IMG/VR virus record: IMGVR_UViG_3300033998_000443
Coordinates: 1-43,364 of that record
Origin: a virus
Length of the DNA stretch: 43,364 nucleotides
Direction: 5' to 3' (one strand)
Shown: in pieces, positions 5,012 through 43,364 of the stretch
Layout of the letters: every line of letters begins with the position of its first letter
Numbering within the stretch: position 1 is the stretch's first letter
Position numbers and translations under genes: made by a program
Notes under the pieces: model-generated
The model's input: only the letters and a program-made list of their open reading frames with translations
What the model was told of the DNA's origin: nothing
Databases searched by the model: none

Positions 5012-5407
5012 GTGGATATGAACATCAGTATAAAAATCGACGCACCTGAATTGGCAGGTGCCATTCAAGCCCTGGCCGCAGCTTTGCTTGAAATGTCCAA
5101 ACCTGTATCTGAATCCATGCCAACACCTGAACCAGAACCCACACTTGAATCTACTCCAGCCCCCACTCAAGTACCGATAACAAAAACTGTACAAGCATCG
5201 AATCAAACAGCAGCACTTACAAAACCGGCAGAGGCGTCCACTCACACCATAACCCTGGAAGAAGTCAGGGCCAAACTTGCGGCGCTGTCCCAATCCGGCA
5301 AGCAGGCGCAGGTAAAAGCACTCATTACCAAATTTGGAGCTAAAAAACTAACTGATATACCACCTGAAAAATACCCTGAGCTGCTAGCCGAAGCGGAGGG
5401 GTTATAA
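5012..5407 (+). CDS. Hypothetical phage protein with low-complexity Pro/Glu linker
   Basis: About 131 residues from GTG 5012 (AAGGAGAG eight bases upstream); ATG 5018 is the alternative. An N-terminal helix (APELAGAIQALAAALLE) is joined by a Pro/Glu/Thr-rich linker to a C-terminal domain (ITLEEVRAKLAALSQSGK, then VKALITKFGAKKLTDIP and PELLAEAEGL). Proteins of this layout are common just upstream of DUF2800 genes in Firmicute phages, but their function is not established. Confidence 0.7.
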   Translation: MDMNISIKIDAPELAGAIQALAAALLEMSKPVSESMPTPEPEPTLESTPAPTQVPITKTVQASNQTAALTKPAEASTHTITLEEVRAKLAALSQSGKQAQVKALITKFGAKKLTDIPPEKYPELLAEAEGL

Positions 5408-29442: not shown

Positions 29443-31891
29443 GATTGCCTTTCAATTGGCTGGCAAGATAAATTCATCATTTGGAAATGCTTTTGCATCG
29501 GCTGAAAGCAAGCTCCAGAAAATGAACCAGCAAATATCATCGTTAAAAGCCGAAATTAGGGAACTGGAAAGGGCACAGAAGGCCGGAAAAATCAGCGCCG
29601 AGGAATTTGCAGCGTCTTATTCTAAACTTACCGAACAGCTCCAGAAGACAGAAAGGGCTCAAAAGAATCTTGCCAGAGCAGTCAATCTTCAGCAGCGGGT
29701 AGCAGATTTTCGCGGGCGAATGCGGGCTGGAATGCTCGGGGCCGTTGAAACCGCAGTGACCGTTGGCGCCCCAGTAAAAGCGGCCATAGATTTTGAATCC
29801 GCCATGGCCGATGTGCGAAAGGTGGTAGATTTTGAGACACCTCAGCAGTTTGCGGCGATGGGGAAGGATATTTTAACTCTATCCACCAGGATTCCTATGG
29901 CCGCAAATGGTCTGGCGCAAATCGTTGCTGCAGGAGGTCAGGCAGGCATTGCTCGTGAGGAGCTTTTAGGGTTTGCCGAAAGCGCCGCTAAGATGGGTGT
30001 TGCCTTTGATATTACAGCGGAAGAAGCCGGCCAGATGATGGCTGAATGGCGATCGGCGTTTAAAATGAACCAGGAACAGGTCAATACTCTGGCTGATCAG
30101 ATTAATTACCTGGGTAACACGACAGCGGCATCGGCGCCAAAGATATCCGAAGTAGTGCGCCGTATCGGGCCACTTGGTGAAGTGGGTGGTGCGGCGGCGG
30201 GAGAAATAGCCGCCCTAGGTGCGACAATGGTTTCAGCCGGTATAACTGAAGAAATTGCGGCGACTGGTATAAAAAATCTAATTCTTGGCTTAGTTGCCGG
30301 CGAAAGCGCCACAAAATCCCAGGCCGAGGCTTTTGCAGCGCTGGGACTTAATGCCAAGTCAATGGCTAAAATGATGCAAAAGGATGCCCAGGGGGCTATA
30401 TTGAAAGTATTACAGGCCCTACAAAAACTTCCGGAATACAAACGGACGGCAGTATTGAGCGACCTTTTCGGGAAAGAAAGTATAGGGGCTATTGCGCCGC
30501 TCCTTACCAACCTTGATGCATTAAAGGAAAATTTCAAAAAGGTTGGTGACGCTACGCAATACGCCGGCAGTATGCAAAAAGAGTTTGAAGCACGGGCCGC
30601 TACTACAGAAAACAGCTTAATATTGCTGAAAAATCGCATTGCAGCATTAGGGATATCTCTTGGAAATATCATGTTGCCATACGTAAACGACATTTCTAAA
30701 AAATTGGCGGTCGCAACGGAGTGGATTCAAAAATTGTCTGAGAAACATCCGGGTTTAACCAGGGCAATTGTGCTGGGAACTGCGGCAGTTCTTGGATTTA
30801 GTGTGGCTTTGACGGGGTTAGGCTATGTTGCCAGCATTATTATCAGCCCATTCGTAAGCCTTTATTCTTGGATAATAAAATATACAGTCGCTACTGAAGC
30901 TGATGAAATAGCGACAAAAAAGGCAACTGCCGCGCAAAATGCATGGAACTTGGCTAAAAAGGCAGGACAAGGATTACTAAATGTCGGACGTCTTACCGTA
31001 TATTATACTAAAACCTTAGCGATTGCAGCTGCTACAAAAGCCTGGACCGCCGCACAGTGGCTCTGGAATGCGGCTATGAAAGCTGGCAGCGGATTACTTT
31101 CTGTGGGGCAAATAGTTTTATACTATACCAAGATGTTGGCAATCACAGCCGCGACCAAAGCATGGACGGCAGCGCAGTGGCTTTGGAACATGGCTATGAG
31201 TGCCGGCAAAGGTTTGCTTTCAGTGGGGCAGTTGGCACTTTACCATGCAAAGGTGTTGGCAATTACCGTAGCCACCAAAGCATGGACAGCTGCACAGTGG
31301 TTATGGAATGCGGCTATGAGCGCCAATCCCATTGGATTGGTCATTTTAGGAATAGGGGCACTTATCGGAGCTGGATACTTATTGATAAAAAACTGGGATA
31401 AAGTAAAAAATTGGTTTATTACTCTTTGGAATGACCCGTTAGCGGCTTTGAATCAGTTCGTCGCAAGTATCCGTGAGAAGTTTGCCGGTATTTTCGGCTG
31501 GTTGGAGAAAGGATGGAATAAACTGACTTCTCTATTTGGTGGAGGTAAGAAAAAGGCTACTGTTGAATTATCAACCGATGCTCTGCCTGGACATGCCGAA
31601 GGCGGAATTTTTAATAAACCGCACATTGCATGGTTTGCAGAGAATGGAGCCGAGGCGGCTATCCCGCTGGATGGATCATCAAGAGCTAAATCTATATGGG
31701 CAAAGGCCGGAGAAATGCTAGGAGTGAATCCGACTGGCGGAGCCAGCATAATGTATGCACCAGTCTATAATATTTACGGTGAAAGAGATGTCGAGAAACA
31801 GGTCAGGCGTGCTGCTAAATCTGCTGAAGATGATTTTGCAGCGCGTTTCAAGGCTTACCTGCGTCAGGAGAGGCGGTTGAGTTATGCGTGA
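29426..31891 (+). CDS. Tail tape measure protein
   Basis: An 821-residue TP901-type tape measure protein that sets tail length and may pass into the host on injection. It begins with a coiled coil (about 20-95), then the family core IDFESAMADVRKVVDFETP and LAQIVAAGGQAGIAREELLG. Hydrophobic repeats occupy about 496-635, then LVILGIGALIGAGYLLIKNW and a C-terminal GGIFNKPHIAWFAENGAEAA motif. Start ATG 29426 lies in the E' frame end. Confidence 0.93.
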   Translation: MARMFEIAFQLAGKINSSFGNAFASAESKLQKMNQQISSLKAEIRELERAQKAGKISAEEFAASYSKLTEQLQKTERAQKNLARAVNLQQRVADFRGRMRAGMLGAVETAVTVGAPVKAAIDFESAMADVRKVVDFETPQQFAAMGKDILTLSTRIPMAANGLAQIVAAGGQAGIAREELLGFAESAAKMGVAFDITAEEAGQMMAEWRSAFKMNQEQVNTLADQINYLGNTTAASAPKISEVVRRIGPLGEVGGAAAGEIAALGATMVSAGITEEIAATGIKNLILGLVAGESATKSQAEAFAALGLNAKSMAKMMQKDAQGAILKVLQALQKLPEYKRTAVLSDLFGKESIGAIAPLLTNLDALKENFKKVGDATQYAGSMQKEFEARAATTENSLILLKNRIAALGISLGNIMLPYVNDISKKLAVATEWIQKLSEKHPGLTRAIVLGTAAVLGFSVALTGLGYVASIIISPFVSLYSWIIKYTVATEADEIATKKATAAQNAWNLAKKAGQGLLNVGRLTVYYTKTLAIAAATKAWTAAQWLWNAAMKAGSGLLSVGQIVLYYTKMLAITAATKAWTAAQWLWNMAMSAGKGLLSVGQLALYHAKVLAITVATKAWTAAQWLWNAAMSANPIGLVILGIGALIGAGYLLIKNWDKVKNWFITLWNDPLAALNQFVASIREKFAGIFGWLEKGWNKLTSLFGGGKKKATVELSTDALPGHAEGGIFNKPHIAWFAENGAEAAIPLDGSSRAKSIWAKAGEMLGVNPTGGASIMYAPVYNIYGERDVEKQVRRAAKSAEDDFAARFKAYLRQERRLSYA
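30911..31330 (+). repeat. 120-bp tandem repeats inside the tape measure gene
   Basis: Units start at 30911 (degenerate), 31031, 31151 and 31271 (partial), exactly 120 bases apart. Each encodes 40 residues beginning ATKAWTAAQWLWN and continuing AGxGLLSVGQ...LY..K.LAIT. The later copies are nearly identical in protein but differ at third codon positions. Confidence 0.92.
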
Positions 31892-32093
31892 GTATGTGAC
31901 GGTGCAAGGTGATACATGGGATCTAATAGCATATAAGGTATATGATAACGAAGCATATATGAATAAACTTATTGAAGCCAATCCAGAACACAGAGAGACG
32001 GTATTTTTTAGTGCTAATGTAAGACTTAAGGTTCCAGAAATAGAAACGCCGATTCCAACAACTTTACCGCCCTGGAAGCGTGGTGAAACATAA
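31884..32093 (+). CDS. Tail protein X (LysM-like, P2 gpX)
   Basis: A 69-residue baseplate/tail hub protein with a LysM-like fold: YVTVQGDTWDLIAYKVYDNE and MNKLIEANPEHRETVFFSAN. It overlaps the tape measure and gpD genes, the P2 order. Probably links the tube end to the hub. Confidence 0.93.
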   Translation: MREYVTVQGDTWDLIAYKVYDNEAYMNKLIEANPEHRETVFFSANVRLKVPEIETPIPTTLPPWKRGET

Positions 32094-33109
32094 TGGGCGA
32101 GACAAGACGGGCTAAACTCCTTTTGAAGTATAACAACAGAGATATTTCCGCTGATTTGGCTCCTTATCTGTTGGACTTCTCATATACTGATTATGCTAGT
32201 GGAAAAGCTGATGATATCCAAATTACATTAGAAGACAGGGCAGGCCTTTGGCGGTCCCCCTGGATGCCGGAAAAAGGGGCAATTATTGTAGCATCTTTGC
32301 TGGTCCAGCACTGGGAGCGGGCGGGGCAGGCTCAGAAACTACCATTAGGAACTTTTGAAATAGATGAAATTGAGTACTCTGGGCCTCCAGATACAGTCAA
32401 GATAAAGGCGATCTCCGTGCCAGTATCTTCTTCCCTTGTCGATGAGGACAAAACAAGAGCCTGGGAAAAAACACGGTTGTCTGTTATTGCCAAAGATATT
32501 GCTGGTGGTGCGGGTTTGAAGCTCCTGTATGATGCCGACTATAATCCGGAGTATGATCGCATTGAACAGACAGAAGAATCGGACTTGGCATTTCTGCTCC
32601 GGCTCTGCGAGGATGCAGGATTGGCCCTAAAGGTTACAGATAAACAAATTGTAATTTTTGATGAGAGTAAATACGAACAGATAGCACCTATCATGACTAT
32701 TATCAGGGGTAAATCTTCATATATCTCCTATTCGGGCATATCTGCTACTCGTGAGGTTTACTCGGCAGCTCGGGTTGAATATAAAGGCGGCCACGATAAA
32801 GAAAGCATCAGATATACCTATACACCGCCGAACCGTCCCAAGACAGGGAAAACGCTTGTCATCAACGAACGGGTTACCAGTATAGCTGAAGCTGAGCGCT
32901 TGGCCAAAATGAGGCTTAGGCAGAAAAACAAAGAAGAAGTAAAGTTCAGCATAAACATGATGGGTGATATCCACCTAGTTGCTGGAGTCACGGTAATGAT
33001 TCAGGGTTGGGGCAAATTCGATGGCAAATACTTCGTAGAAACAGCCGAGCATAGCGGACCGGGATATACGACAAAGCTGGAATTACGACGCGTGCTGGAG
33101 GGATATTAA
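32093..33109 (+). CDS. Tail hub protein (late control gpD family)
   Basis: A 338-residue P2 gpD-like hub protein at the tip of the tube. YLLDFSYTDYASGKADDIQI, GTFEIDEIEYSGPPDTVKIK and TAEHSGPGYTTKLELRRVLE are typical. It overlaps gpX and gpV by one base each. Structurally equivalent to the T4 gp27 hub. Confidence 0.93.
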   Translation: MGETRRAKLLLKYNNRDISADLAPYLLDFSYTDYASGKADDIQITLEDRAGLWRSPWMPEKGAIIVASLLVQHWERAGQAQKLPLGTFEIDEIEYSGPPDTVKIKAISVPVSSSLVDEDKTRAWEKTRLSVIAKDIAGGAGLKLLYDADYNPEYDRIEQTEESDLAFLLRLCEDAGLALKVTDKQIVIFDESKYEQIAPIMTIIRGKSSYISYSGISATREVYSAARVEYKGGHDKESIRYTYTPPNRPKTGKTLVINERVTSIAEAERLAKMRLRQKNKEEVKFSINMMGDIHLVAGVTVMIQGWGKFDGKYFVETAEHSGPGYTTKLELRRVLEGY

Positions 33110-33591
33110 TGAACAATATATTAAAAAACCTAATCCGGATCGGGCGTGTATCGGCTGTGGATCCTGCAAAAGCAACAGCTCGGGTTGTTTTCGAAGCGCA
33201 TGATTTGGTTTCTTATGATCTTCCTGTTTTGCAACGTCAAACGATGAAGAATAAAGACTACTGGCTCCCGGACGTCGGAGAACACGTAATCTGTATTTTC
33301 TTACCTACCGGAAATGCGGAAGGGTTTATTCTAGGCGCTATATATTCTAAAGAAGACCAGCCCCTAGTAACTAGCCCGGACAAACGGGCTATATTTTTTG
33401 AGGATGGATCTTTTATCGAATACGATAGGGCATCACATATTTTGACGATTAACGTCAAAGGCCCAGTTAATATAGTAGCATCCGGCAATGTTAATGTGAG
33501 CGGTGATGTGGTAGCTGATGGAATATCTTTAAAAAACCATATTCACCCGGAAAATGATTTAGGCGGTCCAACAGGTCCACCTTTGAAATAG
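33109..33591 (+). CDS. Baseplate spike protein (gpV family)
   Basis: A 160-residue membrane-piercing spike: OB-fold N-terminus (IGRVSAVDPAKATARVVFEA) with LPDVGEHVICIFLPTGNAEG-like core (DVGEHVICIFLPTGNAEGF), then a short beta-helix. The C-terminal NHIHPENDLGGPTGPP has the HxH iron-binding tip found in P2 gpV. Confidence 0.93.
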   Translation: MNNILKNLIRIGRVSAVDPAKATARVVFEAHDLVSYDLPVLQRQTMKNKDYWLPDVGEHVICIFLPTGNAEGFILGAIYSKEDQPLVTSPDKRAIFFEDGSFIEYDRASHILTINVKGPVNIVASGNVNVSGDVVADGISLKNHIHPENDLGGPTGPPLK

Positions 33592-33602
33592 GGGGTGGCA
33601 GT

Positions 33603-33992
33603 TTGATTGGAGCTTTGGGTAACGTAGTATTCGTTGTTTCAGCTGATATTATACGCACTTTTGAAGATTTTGAGCGTAATACAGAGGGTCGATGGGCTAA
33701 GCACGATATACACCTTGCAAAACCTAAATCGGAATTTTTGGGTCCGGACCTTGATACTATCAGTTTTTCCATGCGTTTTGATGTGGCCTATGGCATTAAT
33801 CCCCGCAAAGAAATGGAAGCTTTAATGGAATTGGTGCGGTCTGGCAAAGCGGTTCCGTTGGTGATTGGGGGCAAAGGGTTAGGGGTTAATTTATGGAAAG
33901 TTAAATCATTGAAACAGAAATGGATTCATATTGATAATCGAGGCAATGTCCTGGTGGGTATTGTCGAGGTGGTTTTGGAGGAATATGTATGA
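33603..33992 (+). CDS. Tail protein U-like (P2 gpU family)
   Basis: A 129-residue protein of the phage_P2_GpU family: VFVVSADIIRTFEDFERNTE, GRWAKHDIHLAKPKSEFLGP and VPLVIGGKGLGVNLWKVKSL. In P2, U is needed for tail completion. TTG start with GGGGGTGG upstream. Confidence 0.9.
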   Translation: MIGALGNVVFVVSADIIRTFEDFERNTEGRWAKHDIHLAKPKSEFLGPDLDTISFSMRFDVAYGINPRKEMEALMELVRSGKAVPLVIGGKGLGVNLWKVKSLKQKWIHIDNRGNVLVGIVEVVLEEYV

Positions 33993-34007
33993 TGGGGGTG
34001 ATTTGCT

Positions 34008-34346
34008 CTGGAGGAATTCGAGGTTGTTGCCGGCACTGGCGAAATTGACTTTGCGCCGTCTTCGGAAATGGCTGAAATCCTGCAAAACGTGAGAACTATT
34101 ATTAGTACTCCTAAATATTCTGTTCCTCTTAATAGAGAATTCGGAATTTCGGCTACTATGTTAGATGAACCTATATCTATAGCTCAAGCCAAATTGACGG
34201 CAGAAATAATCTCAGCTGTGAGACAATGGGAACCAAGAGCTGTGGTAACGCAAGTCACTTACGAAAGTGATGCCCGTGAGGGTGTTCTCCGGCCGAAAGT
34301 GAGGGTGAGGTTAATTGAGCAGTTTGAAAAATCTCCCACAAATTGA
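34008..34346 (+). CDS. Baseplate wedge protein (gp25/gpW family), probable CTG start
   Basis: A gp25-like sheath-initiation/baseplate protein. Homologous content (EEFEVVAGTGEIDFAPSSEM) begins well before the first ATG at 34068. The only in-frame start-like codon after the upstream TGA is CTG 34008, with GGGGGTG at suitable distance. From there it has 112 residues, normal for the family; ILQNVRTIISTPKYSVPLNR and REFGISATMLDEPISIAQAK are diagnostic. An ATG start would cut off the conserved N-terminus. Confidence 0.85.
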   Translation: MEEFEVVAGTGEIDFAPSSEMAEILQNVRTIISTPKYSVPLNREFGISATMLDEPISIAQAKLTAEIISAVRQWEPRAVVTQVTYESDAREGVLRPKVRVRLIEQFEKSPTN

Positions 34347-35436
34347 GTTTGTTTCGACGGATGTGGAGGAAATCGAGGCGAATATAATAACCGTTTATGA
34401 GGGTATTTCAGGGCGCAAGCTGGCCCCAGGCGATCCGGTCCGCCTTTTTTTGCAAGCGATAGCGGCTATAATTGCTCAGCAAAGGGTTTTAATTAACTAT
34501 GCTGCCAAACAAAACCTCTTAGCATATGCAGAGGGAGTTTACCTGGATCACCACGGCGCGAAATTTAGCGTCGAAAGATTACCAGCGCAGCCGGCCAAGA
34601 CCACTGTTCGTTTTACTCTTTCAGCACCTCAGCCCCAGGATGTAATTATTCCGACTGGCACCAGAGTAACACCGGATGGTAAGGTGTTCTTTGTTACTAC
34701 TGCGTCTATCACAGTTCCGGCTGGGGTTACAGAAGTTGATGTAACGGCGGAATGCACTATATCGGGAAGTATCGGCAATGGCTGGCAGCCTGGGCAAATT
34801 AATACGTTGGTCGATCCTCTACCTTGGGTTAAATCAGTATCTAATATAACGACCAGTTCAGGAGGGGTTGATGAGGAGGATGATGACCACTACAGAGAGC
34901 GCATTCATCAGGCTCCAGAAAGTTTTTCGGTTGCAGGGCCTGAAGAGGCGTATAAATATTGGGCGAAGACAGCGCACCAATCTATTATTGATGTATCGGT
35001 GACTTCTCCTTCGCCAGGAGTGGTAGAAATACGCCCCCTGCTTGAAGGGGGACAGATCCCAGGACAGGAGATTCTTGATGCTGTTGCTGAGATTTGTAGC
35101 GATAAAAAAAGAAGGCCTTTGACGGACCATGTGATAGTATTAGCTCCGGAAATTGTCAATTATAATATCCAGCTGACTTATTGGGTTAGCGCTGAGAATG
35201 CGTCTATTGCCGCGAGTATTCAGGAGGCAGTTACTAAAGCGGTAGAAGATTACAGGGTCTGGCAGTGTTCGCGATTAGGCCGTGATATCAATCCATCGGA
35301 ACTTATTGCCAGAGTAATGAAAGCAGGTGCAAGGCGGGCAGAAGTAACTGCGCCGGTGTTTATGCAGCTGGAACCTACGCAGGTTGCCGTTGCTAACACT
35401 ATCACGATAAATTATGGAGGCCTTGAAGATGAGTAA
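34315..35436 (+). CDS. Baseplate assembly protein J
   Basis: A 373-residue gpJ-like wedge protein: VYEGISGRKLAPGDPVRLFL, NYAAKQNLLAYAEGVYLDHH and GGVDEEDDDHYRERIHQAPE are typical. TTG start overlapping the gp25 gene by 32 bases. It connects the hub to the tail fibres. Confidence 0.94.
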   Translation: MSSLKNLPQIEFVSTDVEEIEANIITVYEGISGRKLAPGDPVRLFLQAIAAIIAQQRVLINYAAKQNLLAYAEGVYLDHHGAKFSVERLPAQPAKTTVRFTLSAPQPQDVIIPTGTRVTPDGKVFFVTTASITVPAGVTEVDVTAECTISGSIGNGWQPGQINTLVDPLPWVKSVSNITTSSGGVDEEDDDHYRERIHQAPESFSVAGPEEAYKYWAKTAHQSIIDVSVTSPSPGVVEIRPLLEGGQIPGQEILDAVAEICSDKKRRPLTDHVIVLAPEIVNYNIQLTYWVSAENASIAASIQEAVTKAVEDYRVWQCSRLGRDINPSELIARVMKAGARRAEVTAPVFMQLEPTQVAVANTITINYGGLEDE

Positions 35437-36226
35437 TATTCAGGATATAAAACTTGTGGACCTTTTACCCCTTAACATTGCACAAGATCCGAAAATAAAG
35501 GCTGCGGCTGAGGCAATAGATAAAGAGATACTGGCGGTTACACAAGCAATAAAAATGTGTTTGGTGCAAATTAACATTGATGATTTGCCTGAAAAAGGTT
35601 TGGATATGTTAGCATGGGAATTACATGTCGATTTTTATGAGCCGGATCTGCCGATAGAAACTAAACGGGTGTTAGTGAAAAATTCTATTCCCTGGCATCA
35701 ACGAAAAGGGACCCCATCTGTGATGGAAGAATTGTTAAGCGCAATATTTTCTCCCACGATAGTGGAAGAATGGTGGGAATATAACGGCGAGCCTTATCAT
35801 TTTCGAGTATTTATAGGCATAAAAGAAGGAACTTCTCTTGAATATGACAAAATAATTTCTTCTATCGACAAGGTAAAAAATAAGCGATCGGTATTAGATG
35901 ACTTAATACCACTTTTTACTTCAACACTTTCAATAAATATATCGTTTAATAGATGGCTGTCCGATATATTGAGACGATGCGGCACGATAAATACCATTGA
36001 AGCGGAAATAATCGCTACCTTTGGCAGGAGATATGGATGCTTCTTATCCGAAATAAAGCAACGCTGGTTTTCTGAACTACTCCCTAGAGCGAGTCAGGCA
36101 ACATTCATGATGGGCAATGGTTTGACATACAATAGGGTGCTAACGGATAGCAAGACTAGCTTTTTCTCAATTGTCTTACCAAGAGCTAGCGAGACAACCT
36201 ATTGCGGATTGGAGGTATACGCATGA
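35429..36226 (+). CDS. Tail protein I
   Basis: A 265-residue P2 gpI-like baseplate protein. ATG 35429 has GGAGG upstream (a start at 35414 is possible). LLPLNIAQDPKIKAAAEAID, LPEKGLDMLAWELHVDFYEP and WHQRKGTPSVMEELLSAIF are diagnostic. The C-terminal 90 residues extend beyond the conserved part and may serve fibre attachment. Confidence 0.9.
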   Translation: MSNIQDIKLVDLLPLNIAQDPKIKAAAEAIDKEILAVTQAIKMCLVQINIDDLPEKGLDMLAWELHVDFYEPDLPIETKRVLVKNSIPWHQRKGTPSVMEELLSAIFSPTIVEEWWEYNGEPYHFRVFIGIKEGTSLEYDKIISSIDKVKNKRSVLDDLIPLFTSTLSINISFNRWLSDILRRCGTINTIEAEIIATFGRRYGCFLSEIKQRWFSELLPRASQATFMMGNGLTYNRVLTDSKTSFFSIVLPRASETTYCGLEVYA

Positions 36227-36516
36227 TTACCCAGGATGGGCTAAATTATATTTTTAGTGCCATCAAAGACGGGCTTTTGAAAGCGCGTGCGCTTATTAAT
36301 GGGCAATATCAAGATATTGAAATACAGCAAATTAAACAAGAATCAAATTCAATACGAATATATGTCTATATTTCTGAGCAGATAACAGGCCAGATTACGC
36401 GTTATCAACTATTACTCAACAACGGCAAAGTATTTTTAGATCGTTCCGAGAATATCACTAAAGACGGCACGCGTGGCCTGCTTACGCTATTTGAAATCAA
36501 GATGCAGGAGGTGTAA
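36223..36516 (+). CDS. Small tail fibre-region protein
   Basis: A 97-residue protein from ATG 36223 with GGAGG upstream. It starts ITQDGLNYIFSAIKDGLLKA and is beta-rich (NSIRIYVYISEQITGQITRY), probably a fibre connector. Overlaps the tail I gene by four bases. Precise role unknown. Confidence 0.65.
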   Translation: MITQDGLNYIFSAIKDGLLKARALINGQYQDIEIQQIKQESNSIRIYVYISEQITGQITRYQLLLNNGKVFLDRSENITKDGTRGLLTLFEIKMQEV

Positions 36517-36519
36517 TGA

Positions 36520-37362
36520 ATGCCTGACTACGAAAAGATAACCTGGTATGACCGTGTCGTAGACCAAAATGGGCAGGTGATCCAGGAAGGCACGCCTCTA
36601 TCGGCCACTAACATGAACCGAATGGAGGCCGGCATTGATTTGGCCGCTAATACGGTCGGAACACTGGTGATAGAGGCTCTGACACAGATCAATGTGCTGA
36701 AAAAAGAGCTGGATAAGTGGCAAAATCAAAAGCTGATGCAGGGAACGGTATACATTTACAACAAGTTCGTCATAGAAGGTTGCATCATCTCGGCGATGCA
36801 GAATTCACGATACCTTCAGATTAGTAGAACCGGTACCTATACTGCGGGGGATGCAAGCAGAGTTTATGTAGATGGAAAGCAGGTGCTTATCTATGATGAT
36901 CAGATGATAGCGATGGTGCCAATGGGAGATGGTTCGACCAACAAAGACTACTACACCTACATCGATTATGATTCGGCTGCCGGAAGATACAAGGTATTTC
37001 TAAGAGAAGCCTCTCAAGTGCCTGCGGGGAAATTGCTTCTTTACAAAATTACAGTCCCAGCAACAGACCAAAATATGGACTTGTCAGCGGTAACGATTAC
37101 AAGCGTAAGACGTATTGAACAGGGCAACGTTTATTACACAAGTGACCCCTATGCGATTGTGTCGTTGCCAAGCTATGCTTATTCACAGTTGAATTACCCT
37201 GACTATGATGTGGTTTGCACAGTTGAAGACGCAAGCGACATGCAAAGAGTTGGACAACTCATCGTTTATGATAAAACAGCAAATGGTTTTAAAATCAAAC
37301 ACACGGGGGCAGCTGATAACGTCAAGGTTAGATGGACTATACTCAATCCGAATGTAAAGTGA
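36520..37362 (+). CDS. Tail fibre/collar-like structural protein
   Basis: A 280-residue protein whose N-terminus (WYDRVVDQNGQVIQEGTPLS, then NMNRMEAGIDLAA) is shared by many Firmicute tail fibres. The rest is predicted beta-rich with a short coiled coil (IEALTQINVLKKELDKWQNQ). Located just before the DGR target, so it may bind the variable tip. Confidence 0.75.
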   Translation: MPDYEKITWYDRVVDQNGQVIQEGTPLSATNMNRMEAGIDLAANTVGTLVIEALTQINVLKKELDKWQNQKLMQGTVYIYNKFVIEGCIISAMQNSRYLQISRTGTYTAGDASRVYVDGKQVLIYDDQMIAMVPMGDGSTNKDYYTYIDYDSAAGRYKVFLREASQVPAGKLLLYKITVPATDQNMDLSAVTITSVRRIEQGNVYYTSDPYAIVSLPSYAYSQLNYPDYDVVCTVEDASDMQRVGQLIVYDKTANGFKIKHTGAADNVKVRWTILNPNVK

Positions 37363-37373
37363 GGTGATGAAAA

Positions 37374-37703
37374 GTGCAAATAATTGAGCAGAATGAAGGT
37401 GCAAAAATTGGCTACACGGTGGAAGGAGCACGAATTACCTTCGACGGCAAGCTGACGGTAGACCTGGAAGCAGAACAGGAGGATGTGCAGAAAATTGTAG
37501 ATGTCTCGCTGGACAACGAAGGTAATCTAATCCAAGGCGTGGGCCAATGGTATGTAGCCAATATAATTATCCCGCCCAGGGAATACTCCATAATCGAAAA
37601 CGAGAACGGTGAGCAGACGATAACGGCCTTACCCGTAAACAGGGAAAAGGTCGTTTTAATTTTGTGGACTTTACCTAACAACAATAATGGAGGTGCTTAC
37701 TAA
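37374..37703 (+). CDS. Hypothetical tail protein upstream of the DGR target
   Basis: A 109-residue protein from GTG 37374. It is beta-rich (GAKIGYTVEGARITFDGKLT, YVANIIIPPREYSIIENENG). Its TAA shares a base with the ATG of the next gene, so both are translated together. It may be a chaperone or connector for the variable adhesin. Confidence 0.65.
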   Translation: MQIIEQNEGAKIGYTVEGARITFDGKLTVDLEAEQEDVQKIVDVSLDNEGNLIQGVGQWYVANIIIPPREYSIIENENGEQTITALPVNREKVVLILWTLPNNNNGGAY

Positions 37704-38842
37704 TGGCATTTGTATTTTCGATTAAGGATAGCTATAGGGCTGCCGTGGAAGCTGCCAGTGGTGGCAAAAACACGGTATTATATGATGACCTTGGGTATCC
37801 ATCTATCATGACCATAGTTCCCCGCTATAAACTGAGCGATATCGACCCAACATGGCCTTCCGATCCTCATCCGGCCTTCATTGTTAATGACCGGATAATC
37901 GACGAAATTTTTACCTCAAAGTTCCAGAACGTAGTGGTGGGCGGTCGAGCGCTTTCCCTCCCCATGCAGGACCCGAAGGTCTATGTGAACTTTGACCAGG
38001 CCAGGGGCTACTGCACCGCCAAGGGCAAGGGCTGGCACTTAATGACAAACGCTGAGTGGGCCGCGATTGCCCTTTGGTGCTGGAAGAACGGCTTCCTACC
38101 GCGGGGTAATAACTATGCCGGAGCCGACCACGGAGCACTGTATGAGAATGGCCGCAAGACCTACGACTGGATTCTCACTTACAACTGGAATAATCGGGCC
38201 TATAAGATTGACGGCGCGAATTATTACCATGTAGGCCGGGTGGCCACGGGGAGCGGGCCCGCCTCCTGGTACCACGACAACACCCCCTTTGGCATTGCTG
38301 ACCTGAACGGCAACGTTTGGGAGTGGGTCGACGGACTGAAACTCCACGATGGCAAGATATACGTCCATGGCGCCGGCGGAGTGGCCCAGAACAACTTCGA
38401 GACCCAGAACAACAGTCATGATGTGACCGGCTGGGTGGATACCGGAGCATTCTTCGACAGCACCGTGGCGAGCGATACGACTCAGACAGACCACGAGATA
38501 GCCGGCGATCCCATTTTAAGCCCGGACCGCACTAACCCCATGTATACCACGGACCCGACAACTGACGCCTATTACGGGTGGGAATTCGTTAGCTTTGAAA
38601 GTCTGACTGCCGAAACCGGTTTCACGCCCCCAGCCATGTTAAAACATCTGGCTATCCAGCCCCCAGGTACCGGTCTAGGTGGCGACGGCCTCTGGGTGCG
38701 TAACTACGGCGAGCGCCTCCCGATCCGGGGCGGGACTTGGGCCAATGGTTCCCATGCGGGGGTCTTCGCCCTGAACCTGCACCGCGCCCGCTCGCGCTCG
38801 GACAGCAGCCTCGGCTTCCGCGCGGCTTTTATTCCCGTGTAA
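37703..38842 (+). CDS. DGR variable protein: C-type-lectin/FGE-fold tail adhesin
   Basis: The 379-residue target of the retroelement, probably the receptor-binding tip. N-terminus (about 1-90) should attach it to the tail. From about 95 it has the FGE-sulfatase/CLec fold: WHLMTNAEWAAIALWCWKNG, DLNGNVWEWVDGLK and the C-terminal RLPIRGGTWANGSHAGVFAL. Ten residues carry template-directed substitutions: 337, 345, 347, 351, 360, 361, 365, 368, 369 and 370. Constant scaffold residues of the fold (W346, N348, F355, L357, F372) are untouched. GGAGGTG precedes the ATG. Confidence 0.95.
   Translation: MAFVFSIKDSYRAAVEAASGGKNTVLYDDLGYPSIMTIVPRYKLSDIDPTWPSDPHPAFIVNDRIIDEIFTSKFQNVVVGGRALSLPMQDPKVYVNFDQARGYCTAKGKGWHLMTNAEWAAIALWCWKNGFLPRGNNYAGADHGALYENGRKTYDWILTYNWNNRAYKIDGANYYHVGRVATGSGPASWYHDNTPFGIADLNGNVWEWVDGLKLHDGKIYVHGAGGVAQNNFETQNNSHDVTGWVDTGAFFDSTVASDTTQTDHEIAGDPILSPDRTNPMYTTDPTTDAYYGWEFVSFESLTAETGFTPPAMLKHLAIQPPGTGLGGDGLWVRNYGERLPIRGGTWANGSHAGVFALNLHRARSRSDSSLGFRAAFIPV
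38711..38828 (+). repeat. DGR variable repeat (VR)
   Basis: Aligns without gaps to TR 39276-39393. Twelve of 118 positions differ: 38711, 38736, 38742, 38753, 38780, 38783, 38784, 38795, 38796, 38805, 38808 and 38810. All are A in TR (seven A to C, five A to G). The last 18 bases (38811-38828) are identical, contain no A and form the probable IMH. Confidence 0.96.
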
Positions 38843-38868
38843 TCTGGGTTCTGAAACCTGAAATCTGT

Positions 38869-38890
38869 TGGGCGGGCGACAGCCCGCCCA
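38869..38890 (+). promoter_or_regulatory. DGR target-recognition hairpin
   Basis: TGGGCGGGC-GACA-GCCCGCCCA, a perfect nine-base GC-rich stem with a four-base loop fitting the GRNA pattern reported for DGR hairpins. It lies 40 bases after VR and 27 bases after the target stop. No T run follows, arguing against a terminator. Confidence 0.82.
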
Positions 38891-38919
38891 CCCAGTTCTT
38901 GAACACGGGGGTAAAAGCC

Positions 38920-39255
38920 TTGGCTGAGGAGTTGAAGGTTCTACAAAAAACCTACGACATGATCCAATACGGCTATATTTGCCTGCGGCAGTACCCCAAG
39001 AGAGAGAAGCACACTTTGGCGGCCGAGACCAAGCGGGCCATGTTTGAGTTGCTAAAGGCCATCATCATGGCCAATAGGCGATACTACAAGAAGAACGCAA
39101 TCCAGGAGGCTGACGTCCAGTTAGAAATCCTCCGCCATTATATACGGCTTGCAAAGGACCTGGAGTTTCTACCCATCAAAAAATACGAGAACTGGTCTAA
39201 GATGACCACAGAAATAGGGAAAATGATTGGCGGCTGGCTTAAGTCAGCCCGTTAA
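38920..39255 (+). CDS. avd: DGR accessory variability determinant (Avd)
   Basis: A 111-residue protein from TTG 38920 with GGGGGT nine bases upstream. MAEELKVLQKTYDMIQYGYI, LRQYPKREKHTLAAETKRAM and EILRHYIRLAKDLEFLPIKK match the four-helix-bundle Avd family, and it is strongly basic. Family knowledge: Avd forms a pentamer that binds the RT and TR RNA and is needed for cDNA priming. A frame from 38737 lies inside VR and is not a credible start. Confidence 0.93.
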   Translation: MAEELKVLQKTYDMIQYGYICLRQYPKREKHTLAAETKRAMFELLKAIIMANRRYYKKNAIQEADVQLEILRHYIRLAKDLEFLPIKKYENWSKMTTEIGKMIGGWLKSAR

Positions 39256-39275
39256 TCATTTTGGGGAGAAAGCCA

Positions 39276-39393
39276 AAGCGCCTCCCGATCCGGGGCGGGA
39301 ATTGGGACAATGGTTCCAATGCGGGGGTCTTCGCCCTGAACCTGAACAACGCCCGCTCGAACTCGGACAACAACATCGGCTTCCGCGCGGCTT
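39276..39393 (+). repeat. DGR template repeat (TR)
   Basis: Template for mutagenic reverse transcription. 118 bases with 24 adenines, twelve of which are altered in VR. It is rich in AAC and AAT codons at target positions (reading NWDNGSNAGV and NLNNARSNSDNNIG in the VR frame), the design that gives the broadest amino-acid range on A mutagenesis. Non-coding, between avd and RT. Confidence 0.96.
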
Positions 39394-39575
39394 CACCCTG
39401 TAGCCAGAAGTGGCCGGCTTACGGGCCGGCCTCCAGCGCGCAGGGGTAAAGGGGCTTTCTTCCCTGCCGCGCCCCGATATCGGGACCGGCAAAAAACTGA
39501 ATTGCCGGGAAGGCAGTTAGTAACCCGCGAGGGCGAAGGGTGCCACGCCCGGCGCCTCTTTTTAGAGGTGATGAC
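39394..39575 (+). ncRNA. DGR RNA spacer region downstream of TR
   Basis: 182 bases between TR and RT without a gene. It can fold: GGCCGGC (39412-39418) pairs with GCCGGCC (39425-39431) across TTACGG, and GCGCGCAGGG near 39437 pairs imperfectly with CCCTGCCGCGC near 39465. In BPP-1 the equivalent spacer binds RT-Avd and primes cDNA synthesis. Such a role here is inferred. Other gap parts (39256-39275) show nothing. Confidence 0.65.
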
Positions 39576-40688
39576 ATGAAGAAACTTAAGGGGCTATATC
39601 CTAAGATTTATGATTTCGAGAACCTTTTGGAGGCATACAAGAAGGCACGTAAACGCAAAAGGTTCCGACACGAAGTCCTGCCTTTCACCCGTAACCTTGA
39701 AGAAAACCTGATCAACATACAAAACGAGCTGATCTGGAAAACCTACAAGGTAGGCAGGTATAGGGAGTTCTTCATCTCCGATCCGAAGAAACGGCTAATT
39801 ATGGCATTGCCATTTAAGGACAGGGTGGTTCAATGGGCCATATACAGGGTGTTGAACCCGATCTTGGAGCGGCGCTATATCTTGGATAGTTATGCCTGTA
39901 GGATAAGTTGCGGCCCTCAACGGGCAGCCGATCGACTGCAATACTGGCTTCGCTACTTGGACAGAAGGTATCCAAGAATTTATGTTCTGAAGCTGGATAT
40001 AAGTAAGTATTTCTACCGGGTGGACCACGACATTCTAATGGGTATCTTGCGGCGGATTATAGCCGACAAGGATCTCCTCTGGCTTTTAGAGACCATTATC
40101 CGGTCTGAGGATACGAAGTTCGGTATTCCCCTGGGCGACCACGGCTTCGAGTGCGAGAGGGTCGGGGGAGTGGGTATGCCTATAGGCAACCTGACAAGTC
40201 AAATGTTTGCCAACCTTTATCTAAACGAGCTTGATCAGTATGCCAAGCATGTCCTGAGAATTCAACATTATATCCGATATATGGATGACGTGGTTATTTC
40301 ACATCCGAATAAGAAATATTTATGGCAGCTTAAAGATGAGATTGGTACATTCCTGGAAGACCGTTTGCACTTGGTACTCAATAACAAGACCACCGTCCGA
40401 ACGGTAGACCAAGGCGTCGATTTCTGCGGGTATCGAATATGGCCCACCCACCGCAAGCTCCGCAAGAGTACGGCCCTCAAAATGAAACGGCGTCTGAAAT
40501 ACCTTCAGCAGGCCTATGCGCGGGGTGAGGTCAGCTTTGATGAGGTGAACGCCACCGTGCAGAGCTATCTCGGGCTGCTCAAGCATTGCAATAGTTATAA
40601 CTTGCGGAAGAAACTTTTTGAGACCTTGGTGTTTATTCGAGGAGGGGATACCGGTGAACAAGACGATAATAACTTGGCCGGAAGGTGA
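39576..40688 (+). CDS. DGR reverse transcriptase
   Basis: Copies TR RNA into A-mutagenised cDNA. 370 residues from ATG 39576 with GAGGTG upstream; a GTG at 39540 lacks a ribosome site. RT motifs: RLIMALPFKDRVVQWAIYRV, catalytic YVLKLDISKYF, DGR-specific IGNLTSQ at 203-209 (in place of the QGxxxSP of group II and retroviral RTs), catalytic YMDD at 235-238 and FCGYRIWPTHRKLRK. No maturase or endonuclease domain. Normal length for a DGR RT. Confidence 0.96.
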   Translation: MKKLKGLYPKIYDFENLLEAYKKARKRKRFRHEVLPFTRNLEENLINIQNELIWKTYKVGRYREFFISDPKKRLIMALPFKDRVVQWAIYRVLNPILERRYILDSYACRISCGPQRAADRLQYWLRYLDRRYPRIYVLKLDISKYFYRVDHDILMGILRRIIADKDLLWLLETIIRSEDTKFGIPLGDHGFECERVGGVGMPIGNLTSQMFANLYLNELDQYAKHVLRIQHYIRYMDDVVISHPNKKYLWQLKDEIGTFLEDRLHLVLNNKTTVRTVDQGVDFCGYRIWPTHRKLRKSTALKMKRRLKYLQQAYARGEVSFDEVNATVQSYLGLLKHCNSYNLRKKLFETLVFIRGGDTGEQDDNNLAGR

Positions 40689-40693
40689 CGCAT

Positions 40694-40924
40694 ATGCCTG
40701 GTTCTGAAATTGCACAATACGGAATAGGCTTTTTTGCTGTAGCAGGTCTGATCTTCATAGTGGCTCGCTATTTTGATGGCAAAAACGACAATAACTTAGC
40801 CGAGGTAATAGAAAACAACACGAAAGCCCTTGAGCAGGTGACGGCAGTGGTGCAGGCTATCCAGTTGTCTCTCACACGGCAGGAGGCCAAGATTGACGAG
40901 CTTCTCGAGAGGGCAAGGCGGTGA
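40694..40924 (+). CDS. BhlA/UviB-like holin candidate
   Basis: A 76-residue protein from ATG 40694 (GGAAGGTG upstream; GTG 40685 possible). One N-terminal membrane segment (YGIGFFAVAGLIFIVARYF) then a charged coiled coil (EVIENNTKALEQVTAVVQAI). This matches the BhlA/UviB holin-like layout. First gene of the lysis cassette, directly after the RT. Confidence 0.75.
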   Translation: MPGSEIAQYGIGFFAVAGLIFIVARYFDGKNDNNLAEVIENNTKALEQVTAVVQAIQLSLTRQEAKIDELLERARR

Positions 40925-40929
40925 TAGCC

Positions 40930-41271
40930 ATGAGGGGTTTTTGGAATGATCCAGATGGCTGGAGCCTGGCGGACATAGTAACCATGCTGGTACTTCCTGT
41001 TTGGATGTATGTGGCGGTGAAATTCGCATTAGCCAAAGATTTGTCCGGGAACCAGGTGGATTATTTTTTGGTCCTTAGTTACCCGCTCTTGATTGCTGTG
41101 GGCGGCAAGATGTTGAGTGGGCTGCCGCTTCCCTGGCCAAGGCGGAGCGGCTTTTCTATAACTCCGCAGCAACAACCCTACTATCAGGAGACCTATCAAG
41201 CCACACAAGTTGCTGAAGTTGCGGCGGAACCTGTGGCTCCGGATGGTTCTCCCGAAAAAACAAACTTTTAG
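40930..41271 (+). CDS. Small membrane protein of the lysis cassette
   Basis: A 113-residue protein from ATG 40930, with AAGGCGGTG upstream (GTG 40921 is possible). Two hydrophobic stretches (ADIVTMLVLPVWMYVAVKFA and YFLVLSYPLLIAVGGKML) and a polar Pro/Gln/Glu-rich tail. Holin or membrane partner by position; not assigned to a family. Confidence 0.6.
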   Translation: MRGFWNDPDGWSLADIVTMLVLPVWMYVAVKFALAKDLSGNQVDYFLVLSYPLLIAVGGKMLSGLPLPWPRRSGFSITPQQQPYYQETYQATQVAEVAAEPVAPDGSPEKTNF

Positions 41272-41283
41272 GAGGTGCGTGTC

Positions 41284-41997
41284 ATGAAAATAGTTATCGA
41301 CCCCGGTCATGGTGGCAAAGACCCGGGAGCCGTTGGACATTCTGGTCTAAAGGAAGCAAATGTTAACCTTCAGGTGGCCCTAAAGGTCGCCGAGAAACTA
41401 CAAAGAGCAGGGCTTAGTGCGAAGCTCACCAGGACAACTGATGTCTTTGTGGACCTTCAGCCTCGCTGCAATATCGCTAATTCATGGGGAGCCGATTATT
41501 TTGTGTCGATTCACTGTAACTCAGCTGGCACTCCCCAAGCATACGGCACGGAAACCTACTGCTATAAATTCGGTGGTAAAGGAGAGATTTTGGCAAAGGC
41601 TATACAGGCCGAACTTATTGCAGCGACTGGGAGAGCTAGTCGCGGAGTTAAAGAGGCGAATTTTTATGTGCTTCGCAAGACCAACATGCCTGCGGTGCTG
41701 ACGGAACTGGCCTTTATCTCGAATCCCGAAGAAGAACGCCTGTTGGCTTCTGCCGCTTACCAGGAAAAGTGTGCCTTGGCTATTACAAAGGCAATAGGCA
41801 AATTTATTGGGGTGGATATTGCCCAGCAAGCGCCTCAACCTGAACCACCGCAGGCACCAGCCGCCGATGCCAACAATGTAATCTATAAAGTGCAGGTAGG
41901 CGCATTTACTCAGCGCGAAAACGCCGAACTCCTGGCGGCAGAGCTACGCTCGAAAGGTTATAACACCTATATCGTGAGTGAAAGGAGAAATGGATAA
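41284..41997 (+). CDS. N-acetylmuramoyl-L-alanine amidase endolysin with SPOR domain
   Basis: Cuts the amide bond between MurNAc and the stem peptide. 237 residues from ATG 41284 (GGAGGTG upstream). Amidase_3 domain (1-180) with zinc ligands H9 (DPGHGG), E24 and H77 (SIHCNS) and catalytic E141 (LTELAFIS). A Pro/Gln linker joins a C-terminal SPOR peptidoglycan-binding repeat (YKVQVGAFTQRENAELLAAE). Confidence 0.94.
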   Translation: MKIVIDPGHGGKDPGAVGHSGLKEANVNLQVALKVAEKLQRAGLSAKLTRTTDVFVDLQPRCNIANSWGADYFVSIHCNSAGTPQAYGTETYCYKFGGKGEILAKAIQAELIAATGRASRGVKEANFYVLRKTNMPAVLTELAFISNPEEERLLASAAYQEKCALAITKAIGKFIGVDIAQQAPQPEPPQAPAADANNVIYKVQVGAFTQRENAELLAAELRSKGYNTYIVSERRNG

Positions 41998-42365
41998 TGG
42001 AAGAGCTGGTTTTGAGGTTAGTTTATGACATTCTGGCCATCCTGATTACCATAGCCGTGGCTATGTTGATTGGGTGGCTTAAGAAAAAGCTGGGGGTTGA
42101 AGGACTAAAGAAGGTTCAAGAAGAACTGGCAGCCAAGCAGGAACTGGCCCTGCTGGCAGTTAAAGCCGTAGAGCAACTATGGGGTGGCGTGCTCCATGGC
42201 GACGAAAAGGTCGAGAAGGCCACCGAGATTATATCCGAACAGGCAACCAAAATCGGGTTGAATATTTCTTCCGAAGAAATCCGCACTTTAATCGAATGGG
42301 CAGTGCGAACCATGAAAGATGAATTTGGCGAGGAATGGGCCAATGCTACAAAAGCGACGGCATAA
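41997..42365 (+). CDS. Phage holin, LLH family
   Basis: A 122-residue holin with one N-terminal membrane segment (ILAILITIAVAMLIGWLKKK) and a long amphipathic tail ending IEWAVRTMKDEFGEEWANAT, the LLH (Phage_holin_6_1) pattern. It forms the pore that releases the amidase. One base overlaps the amidase gene, and a terminator follows. Confidence 0.9.
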   Translation: MEELVLRLVYDILAILITIAVAMLIGWLKKKLGVEGLKKVQEELAAKQELALLAVKAVEQLWGGVLHGDEKVEKATEIISEQATKIGLNISSEEIRTLIEWAVRTMKDEFGEEWANATKATA

Positions 42366-42370
42366 AGACA

Positions 42371-42398
42371 CCCCCGGTTGAGGCCGGGGGAAATTTTA
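42371..42398 (+). terminator. Late operon terminator 1
   Basis: CCCCCGG-TTGAGG-CCGGGGG hairpin at 42371-42390 followed by AAATTTTAT. Just after the holin stop. Confidence 0.78.
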
Positions 42399-42440
42399 TA
42401 CCTGACGGGGAACACTAATTTTGGCAGAATTTACACTATT

Positions 42441-42476
42441 GCCATGGGAAGCAGAACCCCCATGGCTTTATTTTTT
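42441..42476 (+). terminator. Late operon terminator 2
   Basis: GCCATGGG and CCCATGGC form an eight-base stem (42441-42448, 42459-42466) followed by TTTATTTTTT. The T run overlaps the stop of the convergent SWIM gene. Confidence 0.85.
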
Positions 42477-43364
42477 ATTGCACCGATTACAGTTATATTT
42501 ATTAAGCAACGCAGTAACCTCATCATCGGGAAATTCATAACCCGAATAATTAGAGGATTTATAACCGGACCCGTCATACTTCAAATTAATTGAAGATATA
42601 AACATCGCACCAGCAGGGTAAGAAACAATCTTTTCACCATTAAAATATTCTTCATTGTCATATTTTCGGTGAAGATATGTATATAGTTGCCTTTTTGTTT
42701 TATTATAAATTGGGTTCAACTGCAAAACATATGCATCTGAACAAATAGAGGATATTTTATCGGGTATATTTACAATACACCATTGAATAAGATTCTTAAG
42801 GGACATATTCTTTTTGAAATTATCAATATTTAGTGCTGAAATTCTTTTGTTCAGTTCATTGCGTGGAAATATTTCCAATAGCCTTTCAGGATCTTGAACG
42901 CATCGAAGGATACCAGAATCTATCAACTCTGAAAATTCATCATTACGCATAACACCAACAATCTCTTTCTTGTGATACAAATGTTCTAAAAGAAAGGTTT
43001 TTAAAGCAATCTGTGCTTCACTGGAAAGAGCTTCAATGTTAGATACTGATTCTGCAAGATTCAAACTATCGGCAGGTGGAGGGTTTTTGATCTTCCTTGA
43101 ATCTGTTTCTGCGGAAAGATTAATCATTTGTAGTTCGATTGCTAATCGGTACATATGCTTACATGGTAAACGCCGCCTTATAAAGTCAATACAAGTGCAT
43201 TCATTTAAAGTAGTATTATAACAACCATGCGAACCGCTAAATTGACCGCAACAATTTTCTTTATCAATATGTAACGGAGTGCATTCAGCTTTCCTTGCGC
43301 TTGCAATTCGTTTTTGCTGATCAATAGATTCATGAACTGTCGAATCCCATTTACCGAAATTCAT
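42468..43364 (-). CDS. SWIM zinc-finger protein
   Basis: A 298-residue protein whose ATG is at the very edge of the window, so the true start may lie beyond it. The SWIM motif is C56-x-C58-x9-C68-x-H70 (ECTCIDFIRRRLPCKHMYRL), a zinc-binding module for DNA or protein contacts. A second Cys set lies near residues 38-48 (CCG...GCY) and a CNRC pair near the end. The rest is unrecognised. AT-rich, convergent with the lysis genes; phage cargo or first host gene. Confidence 0.8.
   Translation of the reverse strand: MNFGKWDSTVHESIDQQKRIASARKAECTPLHIDKENCCGQFSGSHGCYNTTLNECTCIDFIRRRLPCKHMYRLAIELQMINLSAETDSRKIKNPPPADSLNLAESVSNIEALSSEAQIALKTFLLEHLYHKKEIVGVMRNDEFSELIDSGILRCVQDPERLLEIFPRNELNKRISALNIDNFKKNMSLKNLIQWCIVNIPDKISSICSDAYVLQLNPIYNKTKRQLYTYLHRKYDNEEYFNGEKIVSYPAGAMFISSINLKYDGSGYKSSNYSGYEFPDDEVTALLNKYNCNRCNKK

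Follow-up and report, generated by a model that had tools for sequence, protein, structure and literature searches.

The window, i.e. the whole stretch of DNA that was analysed (a linear IMG/VR virus record of 43,364 bp), carries a complete diversity-generating retroelement (DGR) behind the tail module of an integrase-carrying phage; we put the probability of this reading at about 0.97. Judged from its sequence, the element is very probably a functional DGR of the BPP-1/TaqVP kind, with no part missing. An integrase gene was found at the left end of the window in a PHROG-type annotation search. Pfam-type matches included a GpA-type terminase, a minor-tail/tape-measure protein, baseplate J and P2 I-type tail proteins, and an amidase and a holin were also present. 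The DGR locus sits directly behind the tail genes on the plus strand, in the order target gene, hairpin, avd, TR, spacer RNA and RT, and the target, avd and RT frames are all open. Its features are as follows.

37703..38842, plus strand: DGR target gene, 379 aa, C-type-lectin (FGE subtype), TaqVP homologue (Pfam, phmmer, Foldseek)
38712..38828, plus strand: VR, 117 bp, target gene end (differs from TR at 11 sites, each an A in TR)
38869..38890, plus strand: hairpin, 9-bp GC-rich stem with a GACA loop that fits GRNA (fold z-score -4.2)
38920..39255, plus strand: avd, accessory variability determinant (NCBIfam NF033474 DivGenRetAVD, Pfam bAvd)
39277..39393, plus strand: TR, template repeat, 23 adenines in 117 bp (repeat alignment)
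39391..39552, plus strand: structured spacer RNA between TR and RT, Rfam RT-14 (RF02921), 65.7 bits
39576..40688, plus strand: reverse transcriptase (RT), 370 aa, IGNLTSQ and YMDD (RVT_1, PHROG 1423, PDB 8ub7_A)

When the TR region was used as a BLAST query, a single VR was found across the whole record. No tRNA genes were found in the window, and a phage collection gave no close DNA relative of positions 30000-43364. PADLOC, run on the window, returned RT-type matches only, in an output that does not carry its cut-offs.

The target protein matched Pfam FGE-sulfatase (3.8e-07), and phmmer aligned its residues 3-377 with PDB 5vf4_A (E 9.7e-70). Its AlphaFold model had a pLDDT of 92, and the top Foldseek matches of the model were 5vf4 chains with a TM of about 0.84; TaqVP chains came first, followed by a Treponema variable protein and, further down, Mtd variants. 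VR lies at the 3' end of a C-type-lectin-fold target gene, as is expected of a DGR. Avd scored 123.3 bits against NCBIfam NF033474 DivGenRetAVD, above the DGR equivalog cut-off of 80, and 1.8e-34 against Pfam bAvd; the TTG at 38920 was chosen by us as its start. The RT matched RVT_1 (5.1e-19) and PHROG 1423 reverse transcriptase (5e-146), and its best PDB match was 8ub7_A (E 5.5e-46), which we take to be the BPP-1 RT. Both IGNLTSQ and YMDD are present, and the [IVL]GxxxSQ motif marks DGR RTs. Scores for the listed group II intron, retron and DRT models fell under their cut-offs. From PHROG 1423, 8ub7_A and the IGNLTSQ motif, the RT of the window is classed as DGR type.

The initial annotation had reported that 12 of 12 mismatches between VR and TR fell on adenines in 118 positions, and had proposed a recount on the raw sequence. 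The recount of 38711-38828 against 39276-39393 indeed gave 12 mismatches, with A in TR every time. The adenine-only character of the differences was thereby confirmed, but the repeat starts one position after the twelfth site, 38711. Whether it is included depends on the stopping point, because columns 38707-38711 mismatch consecutively and form a run of five directly before the repeat. The base preceding the repeat was G in VR in 8/8 loci and A (six) or T (two) in TR (window, L004, L005, L006, L008, L010, L011 and L012), and the codon of 38711, E337, was invariant across a 47-sequence target alignment. Position 38711/39276, being the end of the five-mismatch run, with a VR base that is always G and an invariant codon, was rejected as a diversified site. 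The accepted count is 11/11 mismatches at TR A in 117 columns (38712-38828 against 39277-39393) containing 23 A, for which the chance of all 11 falling on A is P = 1.6e-9; 0/94 non-A positions differ. These 11 are seven A>C and four A>G, spread over nine codons. The earlier figures of seven A>C, five A>G and ten codons are right for a repeat that begins at 38711, but not for the accepted one.

It had also been stated that all changes alter amino acids. Every mismatch is nonsynonymous, but this carries no extra weight, since the template forces the outcome: any of the 69 single substitutions that the 23 TR adenines allow would alter an amino acid, without a stop in any case. Silent changes are absent because the placement of TR adenines allows none, and the pattern was rejected as a sign of selection. 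The absence of A to T is likewise true of the window (P = 0.012 with the three bases equal, 0.025 with the pooled spectrum), but it is no family trait. At TR adenines of 124 filtered pairs among the loci listed, 748 G, 452 T and 382 C were counted, with 1414 A unchanged and one N, and A>T made up 12/18 changes in L012 and 9/12 in L008. A C/G-only bias of the window RT was rejected on this ground. PMC3521204 gives G as the commonest and C as the rarest replacement, with ratios that vary widely among single VRs. In the same 124 pairs, natural VRs in which codon selection confounds the spectrum, mutated A before C became G in 66%, T in 18% and C in 15%, and mutated A before A became G in 37%, T in 37% and C in 26%. 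For the BPP-1 system rebuilt in E. coli, PMC12875486 describes raised G misincorporation, i.e. A>C, for A before C; the context spectrum of natural VRs disagrees with this pattern, again with codon selection as a confounder.

Relatives were collected by RT-based scans that gave at least 80 viral and at least 80 genome loci, several isolate contigs being in both lists. A VR/TR pair was detectable in 145 of 160 RT-based loci among the matches listed. The 15 listed loci without a pair (L013, L014, L027, L035, L054, L068, L080, L099, L116, L120, L123, L124, L132, L136 and L162) were in many cases, though not all, cut close to the RT. The 136 unique pairs among the listed loci had 1692 mismatches at A and 52 elsewhere, as counted by a finder that demands an A majority. 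According to PMC8144416, in TR/VR alignments of all DGR clades TR adenines overwhelmingly account for 75% or more of the mismatches.

A test free of this filter took in the window together with six of the eight loci closest to it in RT (L004-L008 and L011). L009 was omitted for a VR gapped against TR, and L010, with 13 VR/TR mismatches that are all at A, as more distant. All 89 substitutions between VR and own TR in these seven loci were at TR adenines, with none elsewhere; the gaps were one of 1 nt in L004 and 34 missing columns in L007. The initial annotation had held that related genomes in which VR differs equally often at non-A sites would speak against its reading, and this check came out in its favour, with 89/89 substitutions at TR A. 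Gapped VRs, in L004 around 5133-5248 (single-base) and in L009 around 1659-1750, reflect a broken target frame or sequencing error.

VR also tracks its own TR. In the window and the six sisters, VR equalled its own TR at 118/118 positions that are polymorphic among the TRs and have a base other than A in the own TR, and at 95/95 such cells in columns without any A. The target of L220 differs from that of the window at 260/548 columns in its first part, and its VR equals the window TR at 94/94 non-A sites. VR varies under an identical TR as well: 21 identical-TR comparisons with differing VR, which reuse loci and are not independent, had 300/319 VR differences at TR A and 19 elsewhere. In L021/L022, L051/L052 and L152/L153, TR is identical and VR is the sole difference in the flanks compared. 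Intact pairs with the same VR were L038/L039 and L059/L062, besides duplicate isolate records and within-genome copies. The VR/TR pair of the window is a record of past activity, and the earlier claim of activity since VR and TR were last identical is borne out by the DGR parts, by the 89/89 substitutions at A and by the 118/118 tracking.

A view of TR as a generally hypervariable stretch was not upheld, as the seven loci differ by 7.6% in TR, 9.6% in avd, 6.1% in the spacer and 12.2% in the RT; TR is more diverged in some close pairs (L005/L008: TR 10/117, spacer 0/181). Window positions 38829-39601, which comprise the hairpin, avd, TR, spacer and RT start, differ by ~2-3% from L005 and L004. 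Divergence from these two loci is ~14-40% in the target upstream of VR and ~17-18% in the RT, whose first difference is at 39602. Going by these differences, 38829-39601 looks like a recombined block.

VR and TR share an identical GC-rich 3' end and diverge only past 38828/39393; when the two were aligned, no IMH/IMH* pair with internal differences was seen. The hairpin begins 40 bp after VR, and a GRNA-loop hairpin downstream of VR is a feature of phage DGRs; PMC3240598 describes GC-rich stems of 7-10 bp with GRNA loops, 4-34 bp past VR. Among 131 unique related pairs with sufficient sequence, 77 had a 4-nt loop on a perfect stem of 7 bp or more and 54 failed this strict test; the loop was GRNA in 71 of the 77. 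Mononucleotide shuffles gave means of 0.42 for the stem and 0 for the GRNA loop. It may be noted that L167 has an 18-base sequence found downstream of VR, yet its TR, VR and RT were undetected. The TR frame of the window (39261-39449) is open past the repeat and reads SPCSQKWPAYGPASSAQG up to a stop, an ending that differs from the target gene's own.

Rfam RT-14 scored 65.7 bits in the window, above the gathering score of 48.1, and spans from the 3' end of TR to shortly before the RT. It was found in 9/11 further loci, L073 and L133 being without it. A search of 398 genomes of the Desulfovirgula phylum gave RT-14 at 13 places (L265-L277) in 12 genomes, 12/13 above the cut-off. All 13 genomic places adjoin avd and a DGR-type RT, and we infer from this that the template RNA of the DGR has RT-14 as its 3' part. 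The RT start lay within 50 bp of RT-14 at 12/13 places, and at L277 a second RT-14 copy intervenes. L277 and L272 (G230:C59:7394-8135) are tandem copies before a single RT that may be served by two templates. A literature search returned no paper with "RT-14 RNA" or with DGR and "RT-14"; the original description of RT-14 lies outside that search.

Other origins of the pattern were weighed. A gene duplication followed by drift, gene conversion or recombination, with the adenine pattern arising by chance, would agree with a TR that remains an open frame continuous with a target-like C-terminus. It is made extremely improbable by the P of 1.6e-9 for 11/11 on A and by the same pattern in 145/160 listed RT-based loci, found by a finder that favours A mismatches; it is also inconsistent with the sister comparison, 89/89 substitutions in seven loci chosen without an A filter. 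The earlier statement that ordinary drift would not give this pattern holds on the same P value and sister count, together with the presence of the DGR parts. Confinement of the changes to A positions is also what would be left if one of the copies were altered by a host mutator, adenine-deaminating or other. Deamination of A yields A>G only, however, and is inconsistent with the transversions in the window (seven A>C); the family spectrum is 748 G, 452 T and 382 C, and a DGR-type RT, avd and RNA adjoin the repeat, so that hardly any weight is left for such a mutator.

We also consider it unlikely, though much less so than these two, that VR was written in the past by an element that is now dead. 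Relatives with lost or truncated cassettes do exist, some near-identical intact pairs from different records share their VR (L038/L039, L059/L062), and a single genome cannot reveal present activity. Against this, the RT, avd and target frames are open, TR, hairpin and RT-14 RNA are all there, and the 0/94 non-A differences between VR and TR imply little drift since the last rewriting.

If the element works as a DGR, by analogy with characterized systems the TR-containing RNA (TR plus the RT-14-type spacer) would be reverse transcribed by the RT with Avd, bases would be misincorporated opposite TR adenines during cDNA synthesis, and the cDNA would take the place of VR in the 3' end of the target gene. 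The replacement site may be marked by the GC-rich end of VR together with the GRNA-loop hairpin, a role suggested for the hairpin by BPP-1 and other DGRs. The altered codons correspond to the binding face of a C-type-lectin protein. This protein is probably a tail-associated receptor binder, and a part in host recognition is suggested by the same systems.

Loss of the cassette was seen in relatives. In a target-based scan (best 80 of 131 loci), an intact RT adjoined the target in 36, the downstream sequence was too short in 25, an RT fragment only was present in six, and no RT in 13; two of these 13, L249 and L250, lie on records carrying an intact DGR. Seven distinct relatives keep target and VR with only an RT fragment (L182=L183, L185, L190, L195, L207, L236 and L238), of which L207 and L236 were drawn from the group with too short a downstream sequence. 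In L182=L183, L185, L207 and L238, the target region is joined at its end to the 3' portion of the RT gene. In L236 the target is followed by an RT without its first 65-70 residues, reaching the contig end, and in L190 and L195 avd is kept with an RT remnant only. Across the seven, avd-TR-RT is missing in whole or in part, with breakpoints that differ; the stretches concerned, downstream of the target, are 7095-7240 in L182 and 1963-2075 in L185. The whole records of L182, L183 and L185, which may be fragments, had no TR and no other RT.

The VR of L182 equals the window TR at 94/94 non-A sites, with 13/23 A changed, and that of L185 equals the TR of L007 at 94/94 non-A sites, with 10/23 A changed. 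These orphan VRs fit recent loss and also rewriting in trans, mis-assembly being another possibility. L249 and L250 show no non-A difference in VR from the TR on the same record (L028 and L017, respectively), and L246 and L254 show none from the TR of another record, their own records showing no RT. Among flank-identical pairs, 5/5 orphan pairs had the same VR, and most intact different-record pairs differed while two did not; one of the orphan pairs consists of duplicate records from the same isolate, and the independent clusters are few. It is possible, at slightly less than even odds, that diversification in this phage family follows a hit-and-run course, with recurrent deletion of avd-TR-RT and retention of the target, of the VR last written and, often, of the hairpin. 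The receptor-binding face would then be optimised and locked, or rewritten only in trans by the DGR of another prophage.

As one more well-preserved TaqVP-type phage DGR, the element of the window is an expected find, and greater use can be made of its relatives. Through them, Rfam family RT-14 is linked to the DGR template RNA; they also offer natural locus pairs with identical TR and flanks and different VR, and, with and without the cassette, provide a setting in which the effect of mutator loss can be measured.

Among named systems, the DGR of a Thermus aquaticus prophage (TaqVP, PDB 5VF4) has a variable protein to which the window target is homologous over its full length, with the same fold and about 37-38% identity over the structural alignment. 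Its order of variable protein, avd, TR and RT, as given in PMC6328139, is that of the window. The same text lists nine variable positions for TaqVP, and 9/9 of those listed align with A-containing TR codons of the window, which has additional adenine codons, e.g. 347, 360, 368 and 370. The DGR of Bordetella phage BPP-1 (mtd, avd, TR, brt) has the same parts in the same order. Its target Mtd is a weak fold match only, whereas the window target is TaqVP-like, and BPP-1 has an IMH/IMH* difference inside the repeat where none was seen in the window. A hairpin with a 4-nt GRNA loop lies downstream of VR in both; at 40 bp past VR, that of the window is outside the 4-34 bp range of a figure legend in PMC3240598. 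A prophage DGR of Desulfovirgula thermocuniculi DSM 16036 (L084, the same locus as L005) has protein identities to the window of 86% for RT, 92% for target and 99% for avd. VR differs between the two at 22/117 columns and TR at 7/117, and the RT DNA has diverged at 177/965 positions, against 20/747 in 38829-39575.
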